Assembly (NCBI GenBank): GCA_035578905.1
Contig: JAQJVL010002685.1
Coordinates: 22,231 to 86,230, forward strand
From: Stictocephala bisonia
Lineage: Eukaryota > Arthropoda > Insecta > Hemiptera > Membracidae
Direction: 5' to 3'
DNA: 64,000 nucleotides
In this document: positions 4,939 to 64,000 of the stretch, one piece after another
Position numbering within the stretch: the first letter of the stretch is position 1
How the letters are laid out: each line of letters opens with the position of its first letter
Translations under genes and position numbers: made by a program
Notes under the pieces: generated by a model
What the model was told of the DNA's origin: nothing
What the model saw: only the letters and a program-made list of their open reading frames with translations
The model's database searches: none

Positions 4939-5384
4939 CCTCTAAGTAATTATTTTAATTTATTAATGAATATATTTTAAGTGTCATATCACAAGTGCCT
5001 ACACTAGTAACTAAATAAATTAACAAGTGCATATTACTAGACTTCGGCTACTTGAACTAGAATGAGGGTTAATTTCTGACAGTTAATTTCTGAAAGAGCT
5101 GGTCATATCAATGAACATAAAATAAGAAAATAAATGTATATCGTCATAACTTTTCATCATATACCCTCACAATTAAGAGGAACTGTAAACGTGTTAAAAA
5201 AATAAAGTAGATGACGATTTGATAATATAAAAAAGAGGCAAGCAGTTATTTTTTAGCTAATTGATAAAACTATATTCCAATAGATAACAAATATAATTAG
5301 CATATTTATATCCAATAAATATAAATAATACTTTAAAATTGTGTATATACATTTGCCTTTACATTCACAACTGCTGCCATATTA

Positions 5385-5905
5385 CTGACTTTATGGTTTG
5401 TTACTCTATGAATGTAAAAGGCATTTCCAATCTGTGTTCCGTGTAAAAAAAAATCTGTGACGTCACTGACTTTTTGATTTGTTACTCTACGAATGTAAAA
5501 GGCATTTTCAATGTGTGTGCCCTGTAAAAACAATCTCAAATGTCACTGACTTTGTGGTCTGTTACTCGATGAGTGTAAAAGGCATTCACCATCTGGGTGC
5601 TATGTAAAAACTCCAACTGGGTGGCTTGTTACTCGATGAATGTAAAAGCCATTTCCAATCTGAGTTCCGTGTAAAAACAATCTGTGACGTCACTGACTTT
5701 TTGGTTTGTTACTCTACGAATGTAAAAGGCATTTTCAATGTGGGTGCCCTGTAAAAACATTCTCTAATGTCACTGACTTTGTGGTCTGTTACTTGATGAA
5801 TGTAAAAGCCATTTTCAATTTGGGTGCCGTGTAAAACAATCTGTGATATCACTTAATGTGTGGTTTGTTACTCTATGAATGTAAAAGGAATTTAGCTCAA
5901 ATGTG
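5385..5905 (+). repeat. Tandem satellite, about 80-bp unit, about seven copies
   Basis: Landmark GTTACTC(T/G)A(T/C)GAATGTAAAA recurs near 5400, 5481, 5561, 5628, 5708, 5788 and 5867, with spacing close to 80 bp except one unit of about 67 bp. Between landmarks the units share GGCATTTTCAAT, GTGCC(G)TGTAAAAAC and TCACTGACTTT. Divergence between units is moderate. Open frames across it are repeat translation. Confidence 0.93.
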
Positions 5906-25891: not shown

Positions 25892-26204
25892 TCATAATGC
25901 AAAATTTAATAATTTCCGTGTAAAAATAAATAGCATAATAGTACGAATAAATAGCCAAAAAATTGTTAGAACTTTTGTGGTTTTAAATAATTCAATTGAA
26001 GGAAACCTTTTGCCTATGCCAAGGATGATTTTAAGTACAGATTTATGGTTTATATTTAGTTGTTCTATATGTGTTCTGTAAGCTCCTTCCCAGCATATGA
26101 TCCCATATTGTAATACTGATTGGACATGTGCATAATAAACATACTTAATTGAATTTAAATCTGAAATTCCATGAAGTTGCTTGAAGGCAAAGATTAACTT
26201 ACAG

Positions 26205-26235
<31 letters not shown>

Positions 26236-27448
26236 TATGAACATCCCATTTTAACTTATTGTCATATATAACTCCAAGATATTTATATTGGCTGACGCTA
26301 TCTACTTTGTAACAGTCACAATTATAATTCATATAATTGCCACTCGTGTGACCAATTAAGGCTATCCCCATTGGTGGTTCGTTCCCTTCCCTTAGTGCAA
26401 TTGGTAAACATTTGGTTTTGGAGATATTCATTGTTAACTTATTTTGGTCAAACCAAGTTTTTGTTAGACTCAAATCTTGAGTAGCACCGTTATAGATCAT
26501 CATGATTTTTTCTATCAGAAAAGCAGTATCATTTGCAAAGAAAAATAGTTTGGATCTGATATTAATTTTAGATAAATTATTAATATAAATAAGAAACAGA
26601 ACTGGTCCTAGGGTACTTCCCTGGACAGCTCCGAAATCTATTGGTCTCGCTTCGCTCAAAAGAACGCCAAGTGCCACAACTTGAAGCCGATCACTTAAGT
26701 AGCTCTTACACCATTTGAGAGTGAAACCTCTAAATCTGATAAGTTCTAACTTTTTAAAAAGAATATTTCTATCTAAAGAATCAAATGCCTTGGCAAGATC
26801 AATAAAGCATATAAGTAGTTTGTTGTTGCGGTTGACTGAATTCATAATATGTTCATTAATTAAATAAAATGTATCAGAAGAGTTTATTGCATTCCTAAAG
26901 CCAAATTGATTGTCACACAATAGCTTATTGTCTTCGTGATAATTTTGGGTTTAGATCTTATCAACTGCTTCAATAATTTTAGATTTAACACTCAATAAAC
27001 ATATAGGACGATAATTATTAAGATCTGTCTTATCATTATTCTTGTATAAAGGAATTACTTTTGCTATTTTAAATACCTTAGGAAAAAGTCCCAAGGTTAT
27101 ACTTTGATTTATAATATACGTTGAAGGATTAACTAAAATTTCTTTATTATATTTTACTGCTCTTGTGGGAATATTATCGTAACCGGGAGCAGAGCCACCT
27201 CTGAGGGACCTAACACACTGCGTCACCGAACTTAATGAAAACTCGCATTCAGCTTGAAAACCTGAAGAATCTACTATAGGAGGACTTGTAGGAGAAATTG
27301 TATCGGCCAGATTATTTCCAATTTGAGAAAAATATTCATTGAATAAATTTTCAATTTCTAACGGACCACCCTCCATGATGTTATTGAATTTTAATTTATT
27401 TTTTGCTTTCCCTAAACCTGAAATTTCTCGAATGGTTTTCCAGAACAA
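25892..27448 (-). pseudogene. LINE-B reverse transcriptase, two frames, mutated active site
   Basis: The N-terminal block (27448-26951) contains SAPGYDNIPTRAVK, VFKIAKVIPLYKN and NNYRPICLLSV, conserved RT fingers motifs. A stop/frameshift near 26945 separates it from the palm block, which has FIDLAKAFDSLDR (motif A with its Asp), AVQGSTLGPVLFLIYINNL (motif B region) and FFANDTAFL in place of the expected F/YADD. Later blocks SKTKCL and KYLGVIYDNKLKW match motifs D and E. Replacing the first catalytic Asp of motif C by Asn would abolish polymerisation. The final frame after about 26000 has drifted. Confidence 0.85.
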
Positions 27449-27635
27449 CTTTGGATTGCTTATCGAATTAGCAAATTGGGTTTTATAGTAATTGGTTTAT
27501 CTGATTTGATTTGGTGGTTAATATTTGCTCTTAGATCAAGATATTATATTCTATATTCATGATTAAATTGATTTGTTTAACCAATTTACTAATTTTATCT
27601 CTTTGCCTATTGATTTTTATTATGTCCAATGTAAT

Positions 27636-49199: not shown

Positions 49200-50225
49200 A
49201 TTTATACTATATGAAATGTATATTTTTTTTCTCCCAATAATTCGTATTTAATATAGTATTACTGTCGAAAAAAAACAATTCAGTTTCTCTTTATACTATA
49301 TAAAATGTACCAACTGTTTTTTTTTCACAGTGTTACCAACTCGCACGATTAATTGCCAAAAAAAAATATATGTCAGTGCTACCAACTCACACGATTTATT
49401 ACATTATACTATAATAAATACATATACGATTATTAAATTATACTATATTAAATACAAATACGATTATTAAATTATACTATATTAAATACAAACGCGTTTT
49501 TCGGTGTTACAGTAATATTATTTTAATTCGTTATCCTTTTATATCCTTTTCAGTTGCGAATAAATACGTTAAAACGGTCGTCAAGTATTAGGAGAACAGA
49601 ATTTGGCAAGATCTCTGAACTCAGCCATTGATATCATGAGCGCGCTATCATATCGCTTGACCTCAGGGTCAGGCGGCGCGCTCTTTATCAGCCCGCTGGT
49701 GCACGACTTTTCTTGGCAACAATTACGCTTCCTCTTCACTTCTGCTAGCCTAATACTGTATTTATTTTAAAACCTCTAAAATCGCTCACCTGAGCTAAAC
49801 AAGGTATCATATGTTTAAATAAAATTAATTGAAGGATTGTTCTTAACCAGTCAACGTCTTTTTTTCCCTGATTTAATCCTATAAAGAGTATTTACATTAT
49901 AGTACCTACATATAGTAGATGATATTCATATAATAATTAATATTTATATTTTTGAAAACTCTATGAAAAAGGTTATGCTTTAATTAAAGTGTATTTTTTT
50001 TCTCGTTACACGGTAAACAGTATTAATGTGAATTATAATAGTAATATTTTGTATTTTATATAGTATTAATTTGTTCTGACCGTTTAACAAATGAACCAGA
50101 GGTTTTTTTCTTGTTGTTGTATAGTTTTCATAACAGCTGATTTTTTTTTTTTTTTACAACAGCTGATGTGTCTTCTGCTACCAGAGAACTCTTTGTATAC
50201 GAGAAAATGTTCTAAGTCTAATTTT
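49200..50225. other. No gene seen; left flank of the viral element
   Basis: AT-rich, with a GC-richer patch at 49600-49730 (GAGCGCGC, a CTTGACCTCAGGGTCAGG inverted pair, GGCGGCGCGCTC). The element's left boundary lies somewhere between here and 50300. No terminal inverted repeat or target duplication was identified. Confidence 0.45.
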
Positions 50226-50300: not shown

Positions 50301-50366
50301 GTCGGACACATGTTCAATTGACGTCATTTACTGAGTATAAATACACCAAGATTTCAAGCACGCAGT
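50301..50366 (+). promoter_or_regulatory. Viral left promoter: CRE plus TATA box
   Basis: TTCAATTGACGTCATTTA (CRE TGACGTCA at 50319-50326) is followed by GAGTATAAATACACCAAG, with TATAAAT at about 50336-50342. Transcription would begin near 50365, just ahead of the first leader exon. A clearly related copy lies inverted at 62401-62466, sharing the GTTCAATTGA, TATAAATAC and CAAGATTTCA blocks in order. Sharing between the two outward ends of the gene cluster argues that both are used promoters of one element. Confidence 0.75.
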
Positions 50367-50470
50367 ATCTGCAGTTGTTTCAAGTTCTAGAGACCAACGG
50401 CCCCAACGTCTTTTCCGGAACCTCTAGACTTGAACAACCTGATCATTGGCTGTAGCAGATATTGAATCTG
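50366..50470 (+). other. Putative non-coding leader exon 1
   Basis: About 105 nt from the expected transcription start to a strong splice donor CTG|GTGAGT at 50471. A matching acceptor with a pyrimidine tract ends at 51232. No open frame uses it, so it would be 5' untranslated leader of the dUTPase/ORF296/PolB transcripts. Confidence 0.5.
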
Positions 50471-51029
50471 GTGAGTAAATGATTTAGATTTCCCAATTTA
50501 TTAGCATTATTAGTTATGAACAGTAACTATTTTATATTATTCTCTAACATCATTTTCAATTAATATTTTAACAAAATAATCATTATACTCTTTATGAAAA
50601 CTAATAATTTAAAATTTATTTACAGATATTTCTTTAACTAAATTATTTAACAACACATTTTAATAATACCAATAATGCGTTAGTATTATAAAATGCTTGG
50701 AGAATACAAATTATTTAATTTATGTAAAAATTATATTTATGATTTTAAACAATATTTTAACATTAATTGCATGACATTATTTCTTAAACCTAATTACAGT
50801 TGTGTTTTATTTATTTTTATTTTCAACCATACAACTAATTTAACTAAATTACTTCATACTATATGTTCTGATTATAATTTATTTCTTTCTTAAATCATCT
50901 ACCACATTATTCAAATACGCGTTTATGAAATATTAGTTTGTGGAATTATATTGTATATTTGGTAATGTATGAACTAAAAGATATTGTACACTAACCTTTT
51001 TAAATCATTGTCGAACAGACTAGTTATTA

Positions 51030-51905
51030 ACGGTAACCATTTTATTTATTCAACATCAATATTTTAGTAAAATAATAACTATCCAGAGCTTAAATTCATA
51101 TTATAATTATATTAACGTTACTGTGACTCTTAATACTCTATTTCACAACTTATTGTTTGAAAAAAATAAGAACCATACGGAATGTTTTTAATAAAGTCAT
51201 ATTGTAATAAAATTTTTTTTTCTTTTTTTCAGGCTGTCCATCTGCTTATAGCGAGGCTGTCCATCTGCTTATAGCGAGGCTGTCCATCTGCTTATAGCGT
51301 GCAGTACATCTGTTATATCGCATAGATTAGCTACTCAACAAGAAACTCATCTGTTTCATCGCATAGACTTACCACTCAACAAGAAACCTGCCACTTCGTA
51401 GAGCATCCATTGTCATTACTAACGGTAAATATTTTATATATTTAACATCAATATTTTAGCAAAATAATAACTATCCTTTTTATGAAAATCAGTATGATCA
51501 ACCAATTTTCAGTTGCGTTTTTCACTAAATATTTCTTTATGTGCTTTCAACCAAATTGATTATTTTTGCTTGAGTTCAAATAAATGTCAGTTTAGAGCTT
51601 AAATTCATATTATAATTATATTAACGTTACTGTGACCCTTAATACTCTATTTCACAACTTATTGTTTGAAAAAAAAAATAAGAACTATACGGAATGTTTT
51701 TAATAAAGTCATATTGTAATAAAATGTTTTTTCTTTTTTTTTCAGGCTGTCCATCTGCTTATAGCCTGCAGTACATCTGTTCTATCGCATAGATTAACCA
51801 CTCAACAAGAAACTCATCTGTTCCATCGCATAGACTTACCACTCAACAAGAAACCTGCCACTTCGTAGAGCGTCAATTGTCAAGCAAATACATTACTAGT
51901 ACGTA
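51030..51905 (+). repeat. Tandemly duplicated intron-plus-leader-exon unit
   Basis: The segment from about 51035 to 51424 is repeated from about 51425 to 51905. Each copy has an AGCTTAAATTCATATTATAA block, AATAAAGTCATATTGTAATA, a T-rich tract ending in CAG, and an exon starting GCTGTCCATCTGCTTATAGC. Copy 1 additionally carries the exon start in three tandem 23-bp repeats (51231-51300). Acceptors end at 51232 and 51745; donors of the form GTAAAT lie near 51425 and 51903. Alternative leaders are therefore possible. The region precedes the dUTPase start directly. Confidence 0.85.
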
Positions 51906-51928
51906 AATTATTTTTTATTACTTTAAAA

Positions 51929-52390
51929 ATGTCTCAAAATACAGAATTATGTTACTTAGGTTATATGAAAATAACGGATAATGCTTACCCACCTGAGTTA
52001 GGTTCTCCTAAAGCAGCAGGATATGATTTGAGTAGTGCTTACGAGTATAGTATTCCTCCTCATGGAAAAGAATTAATTAAAACAGATTTAAGTATTCAAT
52101 TGCCAGAAGGAACATATGGACGAATTGCTCCAAGATCTGGTTTAGCGTGGAAAAAATTTATTGATGTCGGGGCAGGAGTCATAGATCCAGATTATACCGG
52201 AAATTTGTGCATAGTTCTTTACAACCATTCAAATGATGAATTTAAAATAAATAAGGGCGACAAGATAGCTCAATTGATCTGTGAAAAGTTTATGAGACCT
52301 AATATAGTGGAGGTAAAAAATGAAATAAAAACCAAACGGGGACATGATGGGTTTGGTTCAACGGGTGTTCAAAGGCTTAAGTTAGAGTAA
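51929..52390 (+). CDS. dut: Trimeric dUTPase, 153 aa, intact
   Basis: This enzyme hydrolyses dUTP to dUMP and pyrophosphate, keeping uracil out of newly made DNA. All five motifs of the trimeric family are present in order: SPKAAGYDLSSA (about residues 28-39), PRSGLAWKK (about 72-80), GVIDPDYTGNLCIVLYN (about 87-103), GDKIAQLICEK (about 111-121) and the C-terminal RGHDGFGSTG (about 137-146) that closes over the active site. The length fits the family. The first ATG (AAAAATGTCTC) is used; a splice-donor-like GTAAAT lies just upstream. It is the first gene downstream of the left promoter and the only recognised enzyme gene of the + strand cluster without a break. Host genomes also encode this family, but position and strand tie it to the viral block. 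Confidence 0.93.
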   Translation: MSQNTELCYLGYMKITDNAYPPELGSPKAAGYDLSSAYEYSIPPHGKELIKTDLSIQLPEGTYGRIAPRSGLAWKKFIDVGAGVIDPDYTGNLCIVLYNHSNDEFKINKGDKIAQLICEKFMRPNIVEVKNEIKTKRGHDGFGSTGVQRLKLE

Positions 52391-52479
52391 AAACTTTATT
52401 TTAATCATATAAATAGTTTCTTAGCAAAATATTATTCATTTTTTTAATACGATTTTTTATTTTTAATTAGAACTAAAAG

Positions 52480-53370
52480 ATGGAGAGCTCACAATGGGAA
52501 AATGCTGCACACTCTTTTGTTGACGAGTCATGTTTAACACCACCTACGACTGAATATGTAATTGGAACCCTACCACCTTCACCTCCGAAACCAAAAGGAA
52601 CTCGTGTGGGTAAAAAGACTCAACTAAAGCCTGCACTAAAATCAAATCCAAAACCAGGTACGTCAAAAGGTTGCAAAGAATTTACATTAAAAACCGTTGT
52701 TGAACTCCTCCTTCTCAAAGGGCTATGTTCTATAGCCCTATGGGAAAACTCGCTATCAGCAATTAGGAATCAAATTTCGAATTTAGTTAACCAAGAGGTG
52801 TTACAACTATATCTAAATTTAAAAACTGTTTGCACTGCCATATCTATTGGAATATTGCAAAATAGCGACCTTTCTCAAGAAAAAATAGAAAGAATTAATG
52901 AGCAGGACCATCAATACGAGGAGTTGATGGTATATGTTGGAGAAATATTACCAACTGTTAGCAATCCTGCATTTTACTCCCAGGAGAGTGTAAAATTGGT
53001 TTTAGACCTAATAACAGCTTTTATTGACAAAGAATCAGAGAATGAAAATAAAAGTGAAACTGGTGATGAGCAAAATCTAGATCCTGAAAATGCTTTACTA
53101 CAGTTGTTCGGCAGTGTTCAGAAAAAGAGGAAAACTAAAGATTTGCTCATCAACCAAACGTTTGCCCTCAGAACCGAGGATATGATTAGGAAACTAACTA
53201 CGCCCGGAGAGACAGGAGAGTTTATGGTTAAAATTGAGATAACAGATTGTAACGACTTGAAAGGTGTGAGCAAAGATGTCCAGTGGACAAAAGTCTGGAA
53301 AAAGATTATATTTTTAACTGACGAATCTAGCTCTACGTATAAAAAAATTAATGATATAATTTTGCAATAG
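52480..53370 (+). CDS. Orphan ORF, 296 aa, early-region protein of unknown function
   Basis: I do not recognise this protein. Residues about 30-70 are Pro/Lys/Ser-rich (PPSPPKPKG, KPGTSKG) and probably disordered. The middle, about 70-190, alternates hydrophobic and charged residues and looks helical (TVVELLLLKGLCSIALWE). An acidic stretch at about 188-205 (KESENENKSETGDE) is followed by a basic QKKRKTKD that could serve as a nuclear localisation signal. There is no signal peptide and no clear zinc finger. It lies 89 bp after the dUTPase and ahead of polB on the same strand, so an early replication or regulatory role is plausible but unsupported. After the TAG stop the frame stays open for 28 more codons to a TGA that overlaps a strong donor GTAAGT at 53447. 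Confidence 0.7.
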   Translation: MESSQWENAAHSFVDESCLTPPTTEYVIGTLPPSPPKPKGTRVGKKTQLKPALKSNPKPGTSKGCKEFTLKTVVELLLLKGLCSIALWENSLSAIRNQISNLVNQEVLQLYLNLKTVCTAISIGILQNSDLSQEKIERINEQDHQYEELMVYVGEILPTVSNPAFYSQESVKLVLDLITAFIDKESENENKSETGDEQNLDPENALLQLFGSVQKKRKTKDLLINQTFALRTEDMIRKLTTPGETGEFMVKIEITDCNDLKGVSKDVQWTKVWKKIIFLTDESSSTYKKINDIILQ

Positions 53371-53446
53371 GCAGCAAAAATAGCGAAAACTAAAGAGGTT
53401 CATACTCTTGAGTATGAAACCATGGAAGAAAAACCTACAACTGTTC

Positions 53447-53582
53447 GTAAGTGAACAAAATATTCTAGGCAGTAAGAAAAACGGGGAAGAGTAATTATTT
53501 AGATATATTATACTTATTGGTTAGGAGTCTAGTAGTTATTTTATTTATTTTTTTATTTTATTTTTTTTTTTTTTATTTACAG
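53447..53582 (+). other. Putative 136-nt intron ahead of the polB start
   Basis: Donor TTC|GTAAGT at 53447 and acceptor ATTTACAG ending at 53582, behind a long T-rich tract. The polB ATG follows immediately at 53583. The dUTPase leader shows the same arrangement, with T-rich acceptors before short exons. Splicing would remove the 3' flank of the orphan ORF and place the polB start codon at the exon edge. Confidence 0.6.
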
Positions 53583-56500
53583 ATGGAAAAGCATTTACCT
53601 TTTAAGAAACGATTCAGCCGTATTTCTCCCGAACCAATGGATATTGATCCAGGCCCCTCAAATATAACTCAACCAGGTATATCAGGCTTAAATTGTAATA
53701 TCAATAACGAGAATGGTGATGACAGTGACTCCGATGATGATGATGATGATGATGTGCGATTTAAACGTTTCAGAATGAACATTACCGCTAATGCATGTGA
53801 TTAGTTTATTGAACTTGAATCTGCTTTTGGAGGGAGAGTAAAATCATTTTTCTTAAGAAATAATTCAACCCAAGAGAAAGATCTTTGTTTTTTGCTTTCT
53901 CTACACAAAGATGCAATGATAAGAATCATAAGTCAGCAACTGAACGTGTATGGATCTTTAAAATTTAATCTAGTGGTTGAATGTGATTATGAGAAACCTA
54001 TGACTAGTGAACGTCAAGATCGGTCTTTTAAAACAAAAAACTATCCTGTGTTTAATGATACGAATATCAGCAGTTTATTACATAATCTGTTTAGTAAAAT
54101 ATGTAAAGAAGAAGTTGATATGCAGGCTCGAGGAAGTGGTTGGACTTTATCTAAAGTTGATGGAATCTTGTTGCGGATGAGTCGGTATAGACCTTTGAAA
54201 GGTAATACTTTCATACCTCTGCCACACTCTATAGAGTTAAAAAAAGCTGTAATCAATCCTATAAATGTAGACAGTTATTGTTTTAAGTGGGCGGTATTAT
54301 GCCATTTTGTAAAAGGTACAAAAAGATGTAATGTTGACAATAGATATTACAAACTATGTAATTTGTTGAATTTTAACGGAGTGGAATTTCCAACACCTTT
54401 GAAACATGTTACGAAATTTGAAAAAAATAATCCGCAAATCTCAATTAATGTTTATGGGTTGGATGAATTGAATGAGGTTTATCCTTTAAGAGTATGTGAC
54501 AATGAAAAGAAAACACACATAGATTTACTATTAATTTCTAACGAGAAAGGTAATACTCACTATTGTTACATTTCAAACTTTTCAAGATTATTATCATCTC
54601 AAATTAACAGTCATAAAAACAAAAAGATCTTTTGCAAGAGGTGTTTAACTTGTTTTGATTGTTCTAAAACAAATGCAAAACTAAATGAACACAAAAAGAC
54701 GTGTACAGAAAACAAGCCTGTTAGGGTTTTGATGCCAACAAGTGTGAATGCTTTTCCTCCTGTTTTGAAATTTACTAATCATCAAAATATGTTTAAGTTA
54801 CCCATTGTAATATATGCAGATTTCGAGTGTATTTTAAAACCTGTAAATAATCAATTGACGAGATATACATATGTGAACAATGTCCACGAACCTATGAGTT
54901 GGTGTGTTTATATAGTCTGTGATGAATCTGTTCCACAATTCATTATAGATTCAATTCCAACTGAAGTGTTCATATATAGAGGTCCCAATGCGGCAGAGAC
55001 ATTTATGTCACATATTGTTGATACAGTAAATAAAATTGTTGATTTAGTCAAAACAAATATTCCGATGTTACCACTAACAGTGGAGGAAAACAGACGTGTA
55101 AATACAGCAACTCATTGCGAACTATGCAGTAAAGAATTCACATCAATTTATCGGCCTCAAAGAGACCATTGTCATTTGACAGGTAAATTTAGATCAATAT
55201 TATGTTCAAGATGTAACTTAAAAAGACAGTATCAAAGAAACATCTCAATTTTCATCCATGGTAGTGCTAACTATGATACACATTTTATTGTAAAACAACT
55301 AGGTATTGACAATAGACGTGTCAGTGTTATTCCAAACACAAGTGAAAAGTACATTACTTTTTCTAAAAACACATCGAGCGGATTGAACATTCGATTTATT
55401 GATACATACAAAATAATGAATTGCAGTTTAGCTACTTTAGTTAAAAATCTACCAAACGATAAGTTTATTCATATAAAGAAAATGTTTAATGATAATGATA
55501 TGCCTCTGGTTACTCGTAAAGGTGTGTACCCATATGAGTACACATCTTCATGGGATGTATTGAACGGAAAAAGACTTCCACCTCGAAAAAGCTTTCACAA
55601 TAGTTTGGATAATACTGATATATCTGATGAGGATTATAAACATGCTACTATGGTCTGGAATCATTTTAAAATAAAAAATTTAGGTGAATACAGTGATCTG
55701 TATCTTAAACTAGACGTTCTACTTCTTGCTGATGTGTTTGAAAACTTTAGACAATTGTGTTTTAATTCTTATCATTTAGATTGTGCTCATTATCTCACTC
55801 TCCCCAGTTTTACTTTTGACGCAATGTTAAAATTTACAAATGTTCAATTAGATTTGCTAACAGATTATGATCAGTATTTATTCATAGAAAAGGGGATTAG
55901 AGGTGGTATTACATCTTGCATCAAGCGGCATTCAACTGCTAACAATCCGCTTGTTGAAAATTATAATTCTAATTTGCCAACCTCATATCTAACTTATGTA
56001 GATTGTAACAATTTGTATGGCTGGGCAATGAGTAACCCTATGCCTATAAATAATTTTTCCTGGTATAAGGGTGATGTGAATAATTTTCCAATAATGAGTA
56101 TTCCTAATAATTCTGATATTGGATACTTCTTAGAAGTTGATATAGAATATCCACATAGCCTTCATGATGAACATAATGATCTTCCATTTTTTCCTTGTAG
56201 TAAATGTCCACCCAATTCTAAACATAAAAAGCTCCCTCATTACATTAGAAAATAAAGTAAATTACGTATGTCATTATGTAAACCTTAAACAAGGTATTGA
56301 ACATGGACTAGTATTAAAGAAAATACACAAGATTCTACAGTTCAATCAGTCGCCTTGGCTGAAACCCTATATTGATTTCAATACTGAAAAAAGGCAGAAA
56401 GCAAATAATTCATTTGAAAAAGATTTCTATAAACTTTTAAACAATAGCATGTTCGGTAAAACAATAGAGAATATTAGAAAAAGAATAAATCTCGAATTAG

Positions 56501-57264
56501 TAACGTCTGAAAAGAGATTGCAAAAATTAATTAACAAACCCTCCTTTGTTGACAGACAAATTTATGGCGAGTCGATTTGTTCTGTAGAATCTTCTAAAGA
56601 AACAATATACTTTGATAAACCAATTTATGTTGGATTTTCTGTATTAGAGATTGGCAAAATCAAAATGTATGACTTTCACTATAACATTATGAAAAAAAAG
56701 TATGGTTCTAATATTAAGATTTTATATATTGATACCGATTGTTTCTTTTATGAAATACTGACTGATGATTTTTACAGCGATATTAAAGATAATCCCGAAT
56801 TTATGAGCCATTTTGACACTTCTGATTATCCTCCTAATCATAAGTGTTATAGTTCAATTAATAAAAAAGTGCTAGGAAAATTTAAAGACGAATGTAAAGG
56901 AATTGTATTGTTAGAGTTTTTTGGTCTTAGACCTAAACTATACTGTTTTAAAACACCAATTCCACTGGATGATGACTGTAGTAACAAAATACAACCTAAT
57001 GTTCAAAGGAAAGCTAAAGGAGTGTCAAAAGGTGTCATAAATACGAATATTACTTTAGATGATTATAAAAACTGTCTTTTAAATAATCTGACAATTAGGA
57101 AAGAAATTAAAACCTTTCGTTCTAAAGGACATGTTATCAGTACTTTAACTGTAAACAAAATAGCGCTTAGCTGTAATGATGACAAGAGACATATTTGTGA
57201 TGATAAAATAAATACTATAGCTTATGGACATTATTCACTCTTAGACAATATGGAAGATTTGTAA
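53583..57264 (+). pseudogene. polB: Protein-primed family-B DNA polymerase, two breaks
   Basis: The protein would replicate the viral genome, priming from a terminal protein. About 1,220 codons long, in order: an acidic N-terminus (Asp run, about residue 55), a Cys/His finger CKRCLTCFDC...HKKTC (about 350), exonuclease motif I YADFEC (about 412), an endonuclease-VII-like Cys/His module CELC...RDHCHLTGKFR...LCSRC (about 510-550), exo II HGSANYD (about 560) and exo III YLKLD (about 707). The polymerase motifs are A CNNLYG (about 806), B KLLNNSMFGKT (about 950), C YIDTDC (about 1051) and KLY (about 1118). Breaks: an in-frame TAG at 53802-53804 and a one-base frameshift near 56226-56235, after which the frame used by 56164-57264 carries the C-terminal half. 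Exo II has Gly where an Asn is usual. The start at 53583 directly follows a splice acceptor; the longer upstream frame is intron. All catalytic polymerase motifs survive, so decay is recent or the breaks are sequence errors. Confidence 0.92.
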
Positions 57265-57432
57265 ACTGTATATATATATTGATATTCTTTGTAAAACAAG
57301 TTGTTGATGTATCTATTGTACTACTCTTAGACAATATGGAAGATTTGTAATACATTTAATTTCTAGTGTGTAAACTGTATATATATATATATATTGATAT
57401 TCATTGTAAAACAAGTTGTTGATGTATCTATT
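57245..57432 (+). repeat. Tandem duplication of the polB 3' end
   Basis: CTTAGACAATATGGAAGATT, TTGTAA, AACTGTATATATATAT, TTGATATTC, TTGTAAAACAAGTTGTTGAT and GTATCTATT occur twice, about 85-110 bp apart. The first copy includes the last codons and stop of polB. The second is non-coding and contains an added insertion and a longer TA run. Confidence 0.9.
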
Positions 57433-57564
57433 TTTTACTAATTAAAATAATTATATTTTATATTTCAATGTCTTCTTCTTTTTTCACAAAATAACCTTTT
57501 ACAATACCAAAAAGTGGGAGATTAAAAAAAATTCATAGTACATTTAAATTAATATTCGTTTATT
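57433..57564. terminator. Convergent 3' ends of polB (+) and capsid (-)
   Basis: An AT-rich spacer between two convergent genes. On the minus strand an AATAAA-type signal (TTTATT on +) lies immediately beyond the capsid stop. On + the best candidates are imperfect AATTAAAATAATTA blocks near 57440. It is a shared polyadenylation zone by position only. Confidence 0.4.
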
Positions 57565-58776
57565 TTATATAATTTTCTTTACAATACCAGAGAGGGGTGT
57601 ATATTGGATCAAAGCATCATGAATGATCAGACAATACGCCGTTGTATCCTTTGGTATATCGGCAGTTGTTTGAATCTCGATGCGAACATCCAATGATCCA
57701 GTCTTTAAAGTCTCAACTTGTTTTGAACAATCAATTACTATTAAAGGTGTCTTCTCTTGAAAAGTCATTTTATCCAAACAAGGTTGATCATCACCACCTA
57801 TGTAATATGATGATTGAAATCTTGAATACATATCATATAAAATTGATTTATTTCCATTTAAATTATCATATGGATAGTACTTGCTGTTCAAGTACAGTTT
57901 TATATTATCTAAATTACAAAAATCAAAATGCGAAGCATTCTTATTTGCTTTGTCTTTACGATCAGTTTGAAAACCAATTATTACATATCTTGGCTTCTCC
58001 ATCATGGATGATGTTTTGACTGTCCAAGTTAAAAAATTTTGTAATTGGTAATGATGGGTACTCATGTAACTGCCATCTTCTGAATGGTATAGATATGGGC
58101 TGATCTCTTTCAGTCAAACGTAGAAGAGATAATTTCACTTCATCGTCAACTCGAACATAAGGCATTTTCCAAACAATTTTGTTAAGTTGAATTTGAAAGT
58201 CAAATAAAGATGCAGCTGGTTGAAGCACAACATTTTTATCATTAGATGAACGTAACAGGACTAGTTCTTGTTTTACATTCAGTAAAATATGATTATAATC
58301 CTCGGCAAAACCGAGTAGTAATTTAAGTAGAACACAAAACGAAAATGATGTTCTATCAACCATCACACCCATGGTTTCGTTTTGCCAACATGCGTTCTGC
58401 ATCCAGTACTTGTCTCCTGGTCTAGAGGTAAGTAAATTCTTTATTGTTGTAGAAATACCTACGTTTTTTTACTCTATCAATTTCAGTTCCACACAGTTCG
58501 TATCTGATTTCATCGAACAGAAATGCCATAGAATTACTAACTAATTGAGTTGTGGTGTCATCAGTTGGAGGTGTACCTGTCTTGACTAGTTTACCTTCCA
58601 AAAGTAGATAGCTTTTACTAGGTAATGTGGTAAACATCTTGCTGATGAACAGGTATCCGTATCTCATCACTTGTTTTGTAAGAATTTGACGTATACGGAT
58701 TATGAGAATGCCATTCAATATCAATGATAGAACTATCGAAGCTAGGATTTGTTCCTATATCTAAAATATTATTCAT
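57565..58776 (-). pseudogene. Major capsid protein, double-jelly-roll (hexon-like), three frameshifts
   Basis: This would be the main shell protein, forming pseudo-hexameric capsomers. The start at 58776 (NNILDIGTNPS) leads into DEIRIPVHQQDVY, then LPSKSYLLLEGKL and MAFLFDEIRYELCGTEIDR (about residues 85-105), the most characteristic block of adintovirus/Polinton-like capsids. NACWQNETMGVM, RRWQLHEYPSLP and MEKPRYVIIGFQTDR follow, and the chain ends at about 403 codons, a normal length for the family. Frame changes occur near 58640, near 58466 (a 7-T run on +) and near 58035 (an A-run/T-run junction). Each is consistent with one extra base. The ATG overlaps the stop of the 56-aa ORF upstream. 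Confidence 0.85.
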
Positions 58777-58939
58777 CCTTACTCTTGAAAGAGGACACTT
58801 TTGTACGTAGGTATATTTTGTTCCGTAATGTTAACTGCTTAACGACTTGTTCACGACTGACACTAGATTCTCTTTTTGTGGTCAATGTTTTATGTTTATC
58901 TTTATTCGATACAGTAGCGGCGAGAAATACTAAACCCAT
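58769..58939 (-). CDS. Small basic protein, 56 aa, between penton and capsid genes
   Basis: It starts MGLVFLAATVSNKDK and ends with SSFKSKDE. It is Lys/Arg-rich, with no Cys pair and no clear membrane segment. The ATG sits inside TAATG, sharing bases with the penton stop, and its own stop overlaps the capsid ATG (GATGAATAA). That fit on both sides, in a compact late cluster with no other open frame for the gap, is the main evidence that it is real. A small capsid-associated or DNA-binding role is possible; no function is recognised. Confidence 0.6.
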   Translation of the reverse strand: MGLVFLAATVSNKDKHKTLTTKRESSVSREQVVKQLTLRNKIYLRTKVSSFKSKDE

Positions 58940-59634
58940 TATTTTCTTCTCGGCCTAATATCTACTCTTATATTGATATATTCTTCTCTAAAATTAATTA
59001 AATTACCAAATTGATCTTCTAAATTAATATAAAATTCGCTCAAACTCAATTGCTTGTTTATTGGTAGATATTTAACTGTGTTCGGGATTTCTACAATTTT
59101 AAATCCCGGCGCTACAGTTGGATAGAATTCATGTAGTACGTGACCTTCAATCCCGTCTCTATAAGACCCTCGGACTAAATTACATGTGATTCGTATGATG
59201 TCTACTTTATTAATGAACACTTGATTAGGAGACTTGTGCACTTTATTCGCTTCTAATTTCACACCCTTTTCAAATCCTAATAAGGACGCAATGGTGTTCT
59301 CTTTGGTGAAATCGATCTCTAGTGAACAACTTAAGTGACTTTTTAGCGTATTGTTGTTAGCCTCGAGTTTAAAATGCGTTGTAGGAGACTTTACCTTTAA
59401 TTCCTCAATCACAAAATTATTTATATCATCTATTTCATAAGCACCGGTAGCTATACTTATTTCTATATCTTTACCGATATACAGTTTATTATTTACATTC
59501 TCTTCAATATTAGGAATTGAATTGTAAGTCATGAGGTCCATAAAACCCATCTCCCATTCGTCTGACGATGAAAGATCCATAGCTGGAAAAAGTGTGCACT
59601 TGAGGCTTGAACTTCTACCTGTAATACAAATCAT
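58939..59634 (-). CDS. Minor capsid protein, single-jelly-roll penton-like, 231 aa, intact
   Basis: It would form the pentameric vertices of the capsid. The chosen start (59634, MICITG) places the family-typical block LKCTLFPAMDLSSSDEWEMG at about residues 10-30, followed by MTYNSIPNI. A central LEIDFTKENTIASLLGF is the signature shared by penton proteins of adintovirus and Polinton-like elements. The end is RVDIRPRRK. No frameshift or stop is present, and length is as expected. The ATG overlaps the TGA of the PLA2-protease gene (ATGA), and its TAA overlaps the next ATG (TAATG). An upstream in-frame ATG at 59673 lies within the protease gene and is less likely. Confidence 0.82.
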   Translation of the reverse strand: MICITGRSSSLKCTLFPAMDLSSSDEWEMGFMDLMTYNSIPNIEENVNNKLYIGKDIEISIATGAYEIDDINNFVIEELKVKSPTTHFKLEANNNTLKSHLSCSLEIDFTKENTIASLLGFEKGVKLEANKVHKSPNQVFINKVDIIRITCNLVRGSYRDGIEGHVLHEFYPTVAPGFKIVEIPNTVKYLPINKQLSLSEFYINLEDQFGNLINFREEYINIRVDIRPRRK

Positions 59635-60563
59635 CTCCGTCTTGCGAGAAAGTCTAAACACAAATGACCACAATTTACAGTATTAAATTCTTGTTTAGGA
59701 AAGTAATTATATCTAATCACCACTCGATATGGTCCGCTGTTAAAATACCTCTGAAGTTCTAACGGTGGTCTCAGATTACCGAAACTATCAAAATATTCAA
59801 TGTCAAAATCACGCTTATAGTAACATACCCAATGCGTACCCCATCCTGTAATACTGTCTAGATTTACAACACCAGATTCCTTTTCGTTAATACTTGATGG
59901 AAGTAAATCTCTCATAAATACACCTCTGAAATATGGTATTTTCAATAGTTTCGCATATTTGATTATATCTTTATTTGTTAGCGGAACATTTGGTATAGTG
60001 TCTATGAGTGGTGATGAGTATATTAGTTTTTTTTTAACTGATCCAGATCCTCTGTACGGTTTTAAGTACAAACCTTTACCCTTCTTTTTGTTTATTGACT
60101 GTCTTTTTTTTATTCTTCTATTGTTAGATTGTTTCCTTCGAGGCTTTTTACTCTTACGTCGACGTTTTCTGTTATCACAGCCGCTACCTAATTTACTTTT
60201 AGCTTTCATTACGTTTGTAACTAACCAAGCAGCAGCCTTTTCACCTAAACTAGAATCTGATGACCTCACTCTTTCCCAAGCTCGTTCGGCCAATATTCTA
60301 TCGGCTGTTGATCTTCGCTCACTGTCCTTATACTTATCGTATGCGATGTCGTGATCTTTACAAGCTGAATCTAATTTATTAATTCCTCTATCACCTCTGG
60401 CTAATCTCTGTTTTACGTTAGTACCAGGACCACACCACTGATAACCTGGTAAATGTAGTTCTGTGGGTAATATATCTATAGCTCTATTAATGACACTACC
60501 AGCCACACTCCCTAATGTACTTATCAGTCCTGCGCCACGATAAGAACTAACACGTCTGTTCAT
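59631..60563 (-). CDS. Phospholipase A2 / adenain-like protease fusion, 310 aa
   Basis: The N-terminal third carries a parvovirus-VP1-type PLA2 domain: LPGYQWCGPGT (Ca2+-binding loop, about residues 38-48) and LDSACKDHDIAYD (about 62-74, with the catalytic His-Asp pair). In parvoviruses this domain breaches endosomal membranes during entry. The middle, about 130-180, is strongly basic (NRKRRRKSKKPRRKQ) with Gly/Tyr patches, like a core or nuclear-targeting protein. The C-terminal third matches the adenovirus-type Cys protease: GTHWVCYY (His), EYFDSFG (acidic residue) and NTVNCGHLCLDFL (Cys), with a Gln-containing KQEFN before it, the expected order for capsid maturation. Starting at MNRRVSS (60563) avoids overlap with the divergent fibre gene 33 bp away; an in-frame ATG at 60623 would overlap it. 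No break is seen, and the ATGA overlap joins it to the penton gene. Confidence 0.87.
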   Translation of the reverse strand: MNRRVSSYRGAGLISTLGSVAGSVINRAIDILPTELHLPGYQWCGPGTNVKQRLARGDRGINKLDSACKDHDIAYDKYKDSERRSTADRILAERAWERVRSSDSSLGEKAAAWLVTNVMKAKSKLGSGCDNRKRRRKSKKPRRKQSNNRRIKKRQSINKKKGKGLYLKPYRGSGSVKKKLIYSSPLIDTIPNVPLTNKDIIKYAKLLKIPYFRGVFMRDLLPSSINEKESGVVNLDSITGWGTHWVCYYKRDFDIEYFDSFGNLRPPLELQRYFNSGPYRVVIRYNYFPKQEFNTVNCGHLCLDFLARRR

Positions 60564-60596
60564 CGTGTACGTCAGTTTTATAGTGTCAGTATAATC
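60564..60596. promoter_or_regulatory. 33-bp divergent gap between PLA2-protease and fibre genes
   Basis: CGTACGTCAG/TTTTATAGTGTCAG lies between two divergent starts. The TATAAAA on the minus strand (60576-60582) is only about 13 nt from the protease ATG, too near for a normal TATA-driven start upstream of the codon. True promoters may lie within the neighbouring genes. Confidence 0.35.
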
Positions 60597-61388
60597 ATGA
60601 GCGTCGATAAGTTTGGACGTCAAAATGTTAGTAGTAGCAGTAACAAAGGTCTTAGAGGACCTAAAGGAATCGGGTTTGAATTAACTAAGGAAGGTGATTA
60701 TGACATTCGTCGCAAAAGGTTGCGTAATGTAATGGAACCCGAAGATGATGGAGACGCTGTAAATTTAAAACGACATAAATCGTCATTTAATAAATGTTTA
60801 AAATTAAATGATGATAAAAGTACGATGCTAAAGGATCAACAGTTTGTCATGTAGGTGATCCGACTAATCCGACCGATGCTGTGAACTATAAGTTTATCAA
60901 AGACCGCTGTGTAACATTTGATAATACAGAAATTAATGCAAGAAATCATACAATTAGCAATGTGTCAGATCCGAAAAAATATCGAGACGCTGCAAATAAA
61001 TTGTATGTAGACACAATGTGTCCACCCATGACTGAAACTTATTGGAATTTTAAAAACAAGCGATTGGTGAATGTCAGTGATCCAATAAACATGAACGATG
61101 TTATCAATTTAAAGTACTTCTTCAGTAAAACACTCAAGTCCGATTCAACTTCTTGGGACTTTGTGAATAAAAGACTAACTAATGTGGCCCGACCCTATTC
61201 ATATGCAAGATGGTGTTACGCTAAACTATTTGGTTAGATCAATTAGTAATATTTTATATGAACTATACAGATTATTGGCTCCAAGTGGTGACCCAATCAG
61301 AACATTAAAGAAAGAAGACTGGATAGACATGAATATTGTCAACCCATTTTTCATAGATCCAAAAACAAAAATTGCTAGAAATAACTAA
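60597..61388 (+). pseudogene. Fibre-like attachment protein with repeated KRLxNVxDP units, two frameshifts
   Basis: The start MSVDKFGRQN is followed by GLRGPKGIGFELTKEGDYD and then by repeats of about 20-45 residues: RKRLRNVMEPEDDGDAVNLK, a TISNVSDPKKYRDAANKLYV unit, NKRLVNVSDPINMNDVINLK and NKRLTNV...DPIHMQDGV. Such (K)RLxNVxxPxxxxDAVNxxY units are known from phage tail fibres and from fibre-like proteins of related elements, where they build trimeric shafts. The C-terminus (LYELYRLLAPSGD onward) would be the tip. Frames change near 60800-60850 and near 61186 (GCCCGACCC), so three pieces are needed (60597-60854, 60881-61237, 61182-61388). It is encoded opposite to the other late genes. Confidence 0.75.
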
Positions 61389-61452
61389 ATTGTAAGTAGT
61401 TGGTGAAAATAAAATTATACAGTAAAAATGGAATATTATTTTATTTATTACC
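61389..61452. terminator. Convergent polyadenylation zone
   Basis: AAAATAAAATT (AATAAA on +) lies shortly after the fibre stop, and TTTTATTTATTACC (AATAAA on -) just after the opposing gene's stop. The two signals face each other within 64 bp. Confidence 0.6.
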
Positions 61453-62166
61453 TCAATCTACAATACTTTTACCAGTTAAATTAATACATTTCTCATCTAA
61501 TTCCTTTAATTCTTCAATTATAGAGTTTATTTCATTCTGATGTCCAGTGTGACCAATATCTTCCGAAGCATTCAAAATCCTCAGGCGGTCGACCAGTTCG
61601 TTGGGATCATCATAATATATGAAGTTTGGTTTGGCGTCAGTCAAGACAATGCCACTTCCACTCACGGTCTGTTGCACCAAATCTGAATATGTGCTCATTT
61701 CATTTGTTAATTCATTTTCTCGTGTAGCAATTAAAGATATGATGTTTTTATACTTATTCCCCCTGTTAGACTTCACTTTCCCTCTAGGTGAATAATTTAT
61801 CTTGTGAGCATTGGTATCTCTGAGAATCATAGCGTAACTATCGAGATCTTCTTCACTGTACACATAAGGATTAGGTATATTCATAAATAAAAGTTCGTAT
61901 AAACCACGTGTACCCTCATATCTTTTACCATTTATTATAAAATCATCTATATCGATTTCTAATGGCTTATCACCAATCATCCATTGATCGCCTTCGACTC
62001 TTATACCATAATTATGATCTACTTCTTTACCACCTTTAAGTAATTTTAAAAAGTACTCTTTCGCTAGTCTTCCCTTAAACTCACGTTAGTACGTATTCCC
62101 TAGCTAAATTTTTTCCTTGAGGTGTTTTCAACAGGTCTTTACCCGATACCACAGCCGGTGAACGTA
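61453..62166 (-). pseudogene. Conserved virus-associated protein of unknown function, N-terminal part broken
   Basis: The clean part (62092-61453) reads LAKEYFLKLLKGGKEVDHNY, GIRVEGDQWMIGDKPLEIDI, GTRGLYELLFMNIPNP and YSEEDLDSYAMILRDTNAH. I associate this pattern with a family of conserved proteins accompanying such elements in arthropod and cnidarian genomes (from memory DUF8207; unverified). Function is unknown. The N-terminal side is in another frame (62166-62083, with SPAVVSGKDLLKTPQGKNLA) and ends at a stop, so at least one shift lies near 62085. Everything further upstream is in low-quality sequence. The gene is read toward the fibre gene from the right-hand promoter. Confidence 0.65.
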
Positions 62167-62606
62167 CGTTTTTTTTTAGAAGGATGCCACTTTCACATTA
62201 TTCTTTTTACAATATAAATCCCAAAAAAAATCATTTTTCAATAAACGCACTTTGAAAAAGGGTAAATTTACTAAAATATTATATTATAATTCTAATGGTA
62301 ATGTTCTTTATATGATCTTCTAATATTTTTTCCCCGATTTTTCTGACAAACCAGATCTTCTCTTCTTCATCACCATTTGTACACAAAAAACTCACGAAAC
62401 TGATTCCCTGAAATCTTGAGTATTTATACCATAAAATGACTCAATTGAACCGTGTCTGACAACGTAACATTTTTTTTAAGTACTCCCGCTAAACGTCTTG
62501 ACCAATATTTCTACAATTCAGAGTTCTGTTTTCTTTTTTCTTGCAAGTTTTGAAAAAACGTTTGGATCTTGCACAGTTCACCTCCATGTCCGACATGATT
62601 TTTGTT
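62167..62606. other. Transition zone, low-quality sequence
   Basis: Homopolymer runs (9 T, 8 A, 8 T) become frequent from about 62170 and no frame stays open for long. Apart from the promoter copy, a short minus-strand frame near 62600-62490 beginning MSDMEVNCARSKRFFK is visible; I cannot tell whether it is real. Confidence 0.5.
62401..62466 (-). promoter_or_regulatory. Viral right promoter, inverted copy of the left promoter
   Basis: On the minus strand: GTCAGACACGGTTCAATTGA, GTCATTTTATG, GTATAAATACTC and AAGATTTCAGGG, matching 50301-50366 block by block with a few differences. The bZIP site reads TGAGTCA here and TGACGTCA on the left. It lies about 235 bp upstream of the first recognisable codons of the last gene. 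It sits in the indel-prone part of the window, so small differences from the left copy may be errors. Confidence 0.7.
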
Positions 62607-64000
62607 TTTTGAAATTTACTAATCATCAAAAATATTTTTAATTTACCCATTGTATATATGCAGATTTCGGTGATTTTAAAAACCTGTAAAAAATAAATTG
62701 ACGAGATATCATATGTAAAATGTCCACGAACCTATGATTGGTGTTTTATATAGCTGTGAGAATCTGTTCCAAAATTCATTAGAGTTTCATTCCAACTGAA
62801 GTGTTCATATATAGAGGTCCCAATCGGCAGAGACTTTAGAAAATTTTTGTTGATACGTAATAAAATTGGGATTTAGTAAAAACAAATATTCCCGAGTTCC
62901 ACTAACAGGGGGGAAAAAACTGTAAATACAGCAACTCATTGTAACTAGCAGTAAAGAATTCACATAAATTTTTATCGCCCTCAAAGAGCCCATTTCATTT
63001 GACGGGTAAATTTAGATAAAAATATGTTCAAGTTAATTTAAAAAAGACAGTATCAAAGAAACACCCCAAATTTTTTCATCCAGGGAGGCAACTTGATACA
63101 CATTTTATTGAAAACAACTGGGTATTGACAAAACGTGTCAGTTTATTCCAAACACAAGTGAAAAGTACATTACTTTTTCTAAAAAAAACATCGAGCGGAT
63201 TGAACATTTGATTATTATACATACAAAATAATAATTCAGTTAGCTACTTTAGTTAAAAATCCTTTTCCAAACGAAAGTTTATTCAATAAAAAAAAATGTT
63301 TTTTGATAATGAAAATGCCTCTGGTTTCTCGAAAGGTGTGTACCCAATGAGTACACATCTTCAGGGGTTTATTGAACGAAAAAGACTTCCCCTCGAAAAA
63401 GCTTTTTACAATAGTTTTTTATAATCTGATATATCTGTGAGGATTATAAACATACACATGGGCTGGATCATTTTTTAAAAAAAAAATTTAGGTGAATACA
63501 TACTTTTTTAAACTAGACTTCTACTTCTTGCTGATGTTTTGAAAACTTTAGACAATTGTGTTTTAATTCTTATCATTTAGATTGTCTCATTATCTCACTC
63601 CCCCCATTTTTTCTTTTTACGCAAAGTTTTAAAAATTTTCAAATGTTCAAATTATTTTCTAACAGATTAGATCGTATTTATTCATAGAAAAGGGATTAAG
63701 GGGGTATTACATCTTTCAAACAAACGGCTTCAACTGCTAAAAAACCGCTGTTTTAAAATTATAATTCTAATTTTCCAACCTCAATCTAACTTAGTAGATT
63801 GTAACAATTTTATGGCTGGGCAAAGATAACCCAAAGCCTAAAATAATTTTCCTGGTATAAGGGGGATGTGAAAATTTTCCAATAATGAGTATTCCAAAAA
63901 ATTCTGATATTGGAATTTCTTTGAAGTTGATATAGAATATCCCCATACCTTCAAAGATAACATAATGATCTTTCCCTTTTTTTTCCTTTTAGTAAAAGTC
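62607..64000 (+). pseudogene. polB: Second, indel-riddled copy of polB (middle part), runs off the window
   Basis: This stretch follows 54760-56220 in order and on the same strand: TTGAAATTTACTAATCATCA, then CCCATTGTATATATGCAGAT, CACGAACCTATGA and GTACCCAATGAGTACACATC, then GACAATTGTGTTTTAATTCT. Differences are overwhelmingly single missing bases and short stretches collapsed into A or T runs, with long identical blocks between. That pattern resembles uncorrected long-read sequence more than evolutionary decay. No frame is usable. The copy begins abruptly within the polymerase gene, beside the right promoter. Confidence 0.9.

Follow-up and report, generated by a model that had tools for sequence, protein, structure and literature searches.

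The right-hand part of the 64,000-nucleotide stretch of DNA analysed here (the window) carries a compact group of virus-like genes, and the question that it raises is whether a dsDNA virus has become resident in an animal genome at this locus and, if so, how much of that virus is left. A preliminary description had identified positions 50301 to 62466 as a near-complete adintovirus or Polinton-like virus, integrated in an arthropod-type genome and bounded by two inverted copies of one promoter. We consider it likely that an adintovirus-like dsDNA virus of the Polinton type is present here in endogenous form, in an arthropod-looking genome, and that the right end of the element enters poor-quality sequence. 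The gene block itself is real, with gene kinds of the adintovirus/Polinton type supported by profile matches in Pfam and PHROGs. 'Near-complete' proved too strong, however: the reading frames of three genes appear to be broken, and at its right end the element disappears into uncorrected sequence in which part of the PolB gene is repeated.

Gene content and organisation

The lists of open reading frames (ORFs) bear out the strand plan originally proposed, with genes on the plus strand at 51.9-57.3 kb, on the minus strand at 57.6-60.6 kb, on the plus strand again at 60.5-61.4 kb and on the minus strand at 61.5-62.1 kb (Table 1).

Table 1. Features of the virus-like locus and its surroundings (positions in the window)
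Feature	Position	Strand	Remarks
Left promoter-like stretch	50301..50380	+	TATAAATA at 50336, CAGT ~27 bases further; local alignment and pattern match
Possible 5' leader intron	50471..51745	+	GTGAGT donor at 50471; pyrimidine-rich CAG acceptors ending near 51232 and 51745; read by eye
Partial tandem duplication in leader	51085-51474 and 51594-51950 (span 51085..51950)	+	Self-BLAST, ungapped blocks
dUTPase	51929-52390	+	153 aa, open; PF00692 2.1e-43, phrog_135 8.5e-47
296-aa ORF	52480..53370	+	Open; without family match
Small acidic ORF, doubtful	53583..53804	+	73 aa; ORF only
Polymerase, first piece	53916..56255	+	779 aa; endonuclease VII module at residues 398-435
Polymerase, second piece	56164..57264	+	366 aa, other frame; motifs B and C by eye; overlap and frame
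Double-jelly-roll capsid	57565-58954	-	Up to five overlapping pieces in successive frames
231-aa ORF at the penton gene place	58939..59634	-	Open; position only
PLA2-like domain and probable adenain/S273R-type cysteine protease	59631-60563	-	One open frame, 310 aa
Fibre-like gene	60516-61388	+	Up to three pieces in successive frames; first ATG at 60597
'Accessory' ORF	61453-62085	-	ORF only; upstream DNA is uncorrected sequence
Right, inverted promoter-like stretch	62385..62460	-	TATAAATA at 62428 on the minus strand, CAGT ~27 bases further
Direct repeat of polymerase 54763-56208	62607-64000	+	Uncorrected long-read pattern; reaches window end

The dUTPase is confirmed by its Pfam profile. The two ORFs next downstream of it lack a family: the 296-aa ORF has none at cut-off in Pfam or PHROGs, and none was matched by the 73-aa acidic ORF. 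The best Pfam row for the former, AbiJ_NTD4 (0.032, below its cut-off), was set aside as chance-level, as were rows for FYVE (0.017), Gad1 (0.053) and DNTTIP1_dimer (0.065).

The polymerase had been described as a protein-primed PolB with an endonuclease VII-like module. Both the polymerase and the nuclease module are matched by profiles, the first piece giving PF02945 in Pfam (3.1e-07) and phrog_1907, 'DNA polymerase', in PHROGs (2.2e-08 over residues 438-673). An exonuclease motif and motif A can be read by eye in the first piece, and the B-family motifs of both pieces were judged against the family consensus. As exonuclease motif I precedes the module, the nuclease seems to be set within the exonuclease domain. 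A tblastn search against phages with the first piece returned nine records, mostly annotated as endonuclease VII or HNH, in which short segments align with the nuclease region (E 7e-3 to 7e-2). The second piece has no significant match in Pfam or PHROGs and none in the phage tblastn search, and neither the polymerase nor the capsid pieces match a PDB sequence at E 1. Protein priming, a trait of the family, is the part of the description that did not find support, PF03175 not being listed for the polymerase pieces in the Pfam searches.

On the opposite strand, the double-jelly-roll capsid is identified by PF21738, which matches three separate pieces: 57565-58065 (2.7e-52), 57962-58402 (6.3e-30) and 58422-58667 (1.4e-05). 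The first two are above the curated cut-off, whereas the third, at 24.9 bits, is under the Pfam cut-off of 27. The two 5'-most pieces have no Pfam match and were placed by adjacency. Next to the capsid, a penton-like protein had been proposed for the 231-aa ORF. This assignment is unconfirmed, position being what suggests it: the ORF has no significant match in Pfam, PHROGs, PDB or the phage tblastn search and no IMG/VR locus, and its best rows are at chance level (phrog_13778 at 0.023, a PDB chain at 0.88). Its single-sequence fold has a pLDDT of 32.0 and that of another open ORF 36.5, so that neither was of use for fold search.

The third leftward gene appears to combine a PLA2-like domain and a probable protease in a single frame. 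A phospholipase A2 (PLA2) domain, absent from the preliminary description, is matched by PF08398 (5.8e-15), and a PDB sequence search gave a weak likeness to the VP1 chains of a parvovirus, AAV (best E 0.023). The protease that had been proposed is matched by no Pfam family; nevertheless, the protease part resembles African swine fever virus (ASFV) S273R weakly in the PDB search (E 0.024, or 0.081 with the whole ORF), and a His-Asp-Cys order can be read by eye, so that the evidence leans towards an adenain-type protease. The two halves thus each show a weak sequence likeness to a known protein, the parvovirus VP1 PLA2 and ASFV S273R, respectively; unlike in either of these, they lie here in one reading frame.

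Fibre-like repeats were also confirmed in the proposed fibre gene, the middle piece of which matches phrog_2710, a family of phage tail fibres (1e-08). The best PHROGs value for the first piece is 0.0064, while the last piece, which has no Pfam match, was placed by adjacency. The accessory ORF at the right had been called conserved, a term that finds no support in Pfam or PHROGs, where no family reaches cut-off.

Frame changes

Comparison of stop-to-stop frames reveals as many as seven changes of frame, but in-frame stops are absent, the polymerase being spread over two frames, the capsid region over five and the fibre over three. The surest of these are the two between the capsid pieces that each match PF21738. 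The polymerase frame change is read from motifs identified by eye and the first one in the fibre from one good and one weak match, while adjacency is the basis for two further capsid changes and for the final one of the fibre. The dUTPase, the 296-aa ORF, the 231-aa ORF and the PLA2-protease ORF are open.

If the sequence is taken as it stands, complete capsid and polymerase proteins would require that their frames be joined by splicing or by programmed frameshifting. The frame changes are compatible with decay at an early stage and equally with errors remaining from assembly. It is possible, though somewhat less likely than not, that the animal carries an intact element and that all of the breaks stem from residual errors of assembly, of the kind seen in the last 1.9 kb of the window. 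All of the breaks are frame changes rather than stops, four ORFs are open, and a plainly uncorrected stretch lies in the same sequence. Their uneven spread, with up to four within the 1.4 kb of the capsid gene, speaks against this, as do homopolymer counts in 50-62 kb that resemble those in 40-50 kb.

The right end of the element

From roughly 62.09 kb the DNA looks like uncorrected long reads; this start, judged by the closing of the accessory frame, is inexact. Runs of at least 6 A or T, or of at least 5 C or G, occur 0-4 times per 500 bases between 40 and 62 kb, whereas the final 2 kb has 6-8 such homopolymers per 500 bases. Within this region, self-BLAST aligns 62607-64000 with polymerase positions 54763-56208 at 87% identity with 83 gap openings. 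Between the polymerase copies, 66 of the 70 substitutions copy a neighbouring base, where 36 would be expected at random, as do all 30 inserted bases; of the 80 deletion gaps, 78 are single-base and two are two bases long. The differences are therefore nearly all of the read-noise kind, implying that the underlying polymerase copies are nearly identical. The spread of substitutions over codon positions 1, 2 and 3 (21, 18 and 31) was considered as a sign of selection and rejected, the third-position excess being slight.

The abrupt junction at 62.6 kb may be explained by a true tandem copy, by chimerism of a read or by misassembly. That 62607-64000 is a real second, truncated tandem (or concatemeric) copy we regard as rather unlikely. 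The two copies share their orientation and are nearly identical beneath the noise, as such a copy would be; however, the repeat starts abruptly in the middle of the polymerase, is confined to uncorrected sequence and is cut off by the end of the window, and a chimeric read or a misassembly would give the same appearance. Whichever of these holds, a noisy PolB repeat follows position 62466, which is thus not a demonstrated border with host DNA, and the claim that the element is bounded is unsupported.

Putative integration and host

To the left of the element the same sequence holds a reverse transcriptase at 25892-26950 (PF00078, 2.9e-18), which is probably the remnant of a LINE, and tandem repeats, of which there are 39 rows in the sequence. 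Because of these neighbours, integration of the element is plausible. No base-level junction was found, and the DNA to the right of the element does not belong to the host. An arthropod host is presumed from how the promoter and the repeats look. The window contains no tRNA and no Rfam family at gathering thresholds.

A search of the window for terminal inverted repeats and target-site duplications found none beyond a promoter-like match of ~80 bases. Thirteen inverted pairs of at least 20 nt occur in 49.0-64.0 kb, and one of these lies near both ends (pair I10, 50030-50053 with 62269-62292), although its arms, 24 nt at 75%, are weak. A long terminal repeat suggested by a looser alignment was rejected, its score of 493 comparing with a mean of 505 and a maximum of 574 for 100 random sequences.

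The observations on the ends would also suit a false join between host DNA and the sequence of a free virus or a contaminant, given that neither a terminal repeat nor a target-site duplication was shown and that DNA other than the host's flanks the element on the right. There is, however, no clear step on the left side in GC content (0.28-0.34 in 2-kb bins over 46-54 kb) or in homopolymers. This is weak evidence against a false join, which we nonetheless hold to be improbable.

Relationship to known elements

Adintoviruses are characterised by a double-jelly-roll capsid, a penton with a single jelly roll, an adenain-type protease, a protein-primed B-family DNA polymerase, a retrovirus-type integrase and a packaging ATPase of the FtsK/HerA type. 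The element resembles them in carrying, within animal-type DNA, a capsid of this kind, a DNA polymerase and a probable protease of the adenain type; it differs in that its right end is missing and that neither integrase nor packaging ATPase was found in the 25 frames given to Pfam, of 91 stop-to-stop frames of at least 40 aa overlapping 50-64 kb. These 25 were given whole or in part, and the remaining frames, the noisy end or DNA beyond the window could still hold either gene. With Polintons/Mavericks it shares the kinds of genes and its apparent integration, whereas long terminal inverted repeats, a target-site duplication and an integrase were not seen here. The adintovirus label is therefore upheld in part: profiles for the capsid, polymerase-nuclease, dUTPase, PLA2 and fibre, with a weak one for the protease, favour it, but the family is unproven, as neither integrase nor ATPase appeared among the scanned frames and the penton is unconfirmed.

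In the NCBI taxonomy Adintoviridae leads to the family Eupolintoviridae, with the genera Alphadintovirus and Betadintovirus. There are 98 taxa under 'unclassified' Eupolintoviridae, and among the 40 listed are adintoviruses of a moth, a spider and a springtail. Arthropod adintoviruses are thus an already known kind, to which the element adds one member. Searches of IMG/VR with five query proteins and of GTDB contigs with the first polymerase piece, both having only close relatives within reach, gave no relative. Animal-integrated elements are sparsely represented in these collections.

It is very improbable that the element instead represents a novel lineage, that is, an integrated animal virus without integrase and ATPase, having its maturation protease fused with a PLA2 of parvovirus type and an HNH nuclease inside its polymerase, and made tandem or concatemeric by recent replication. 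If it did, the PLA2-protease fusion would constitute one protein for entry and maturation. The locus contributes one adintovirus-like element, which has a clear inverted pair of promoter-like stretches and an ORF for a PLA2-protease. The case serves as a warning, too, that uncorrected sequence can make such elements look bounded or tandemly repeated.

Promoter-like pair and putative expression

The two inverted promoter copies of the preliminary description were recovered as promoter-like stretches, though the ends of the element are not thereby established. The stretch at 50301-50380 aligns locally with the reverse complement of 62385-62460 with a score of 71, against a maximum of 49 in 200 random sequences generated, not permuted, with the same dinucleotide make-up. 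No other 500-base window on either strand exceeds 29, besides two that contain or overlap the promoter query itself. The flanks of the pair align no better than shuffles, their scores being reached by 210 of 500 (outward) and 59 of 500 (inward). Similarity thus stops at ~80 bases, pointing to a shared promoter or the remains of a terminal repeat. The pattern TATAAA-N18-24-CAGT was discarded as evidence by itself, having nine matches in the window.

We infer that the rightward early genes, namely the dUTPase, a protein without family match and the polymerase, are driven by a TATA promoter with a spliced leader, and that the inverted promoter copy serves the accessory gene, which points leftward. 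Genome copying would fall to the polymerase, while the leftward late genes would supply the double-jelly-roll capsid, the PLA2-protease and perhaps a vertex protein. The PLA2-protease may process virion proteins and help in the crossing of the endosomal membrane, and the rightward fibre would mediate cell binding.

The donor and acceptor motifs upstream of the dUTPase suggest splicing of the leader and duplication of the acceptor region. The two copies of the partial tandem duplication are 78% identical over 406 columns by self-BLAST, and the ungapped blocks D1 and D3 within it reach 95% and 97%, respectively.

At the right end of the window (62086-64000), the sequence has an error pattern like that of uncorrected long reads, and gene calls within it are unreliable.

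In the late cluster of the adintovirus-like element, a single open frame (59631-60563) holds a PLA2-like domain together with what is probably an adenain-type protease; the former is an addition to the preliminary description, which did not mention PLA2. The 5' leader, ahead of the dUTPase gene, is partly duplicated in tandem (51085-51950), and splice-acceptor-like sites recur there.

A Pfam search with the open stretch adjoining the reverse transcriptase remnant returned no match. Together the two span 25892-27496.

Repeat and retroelement features in the window
Feature	Position	Strand	Remarks
Tandem array	5384-5894		units of ~80 bases; longer periods of 147 and 227
Reverse transcriptase remnant	25892-26950	minus	
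Open stretch adjoining the remnant	26951-27496	minus	shared frame, one stop between
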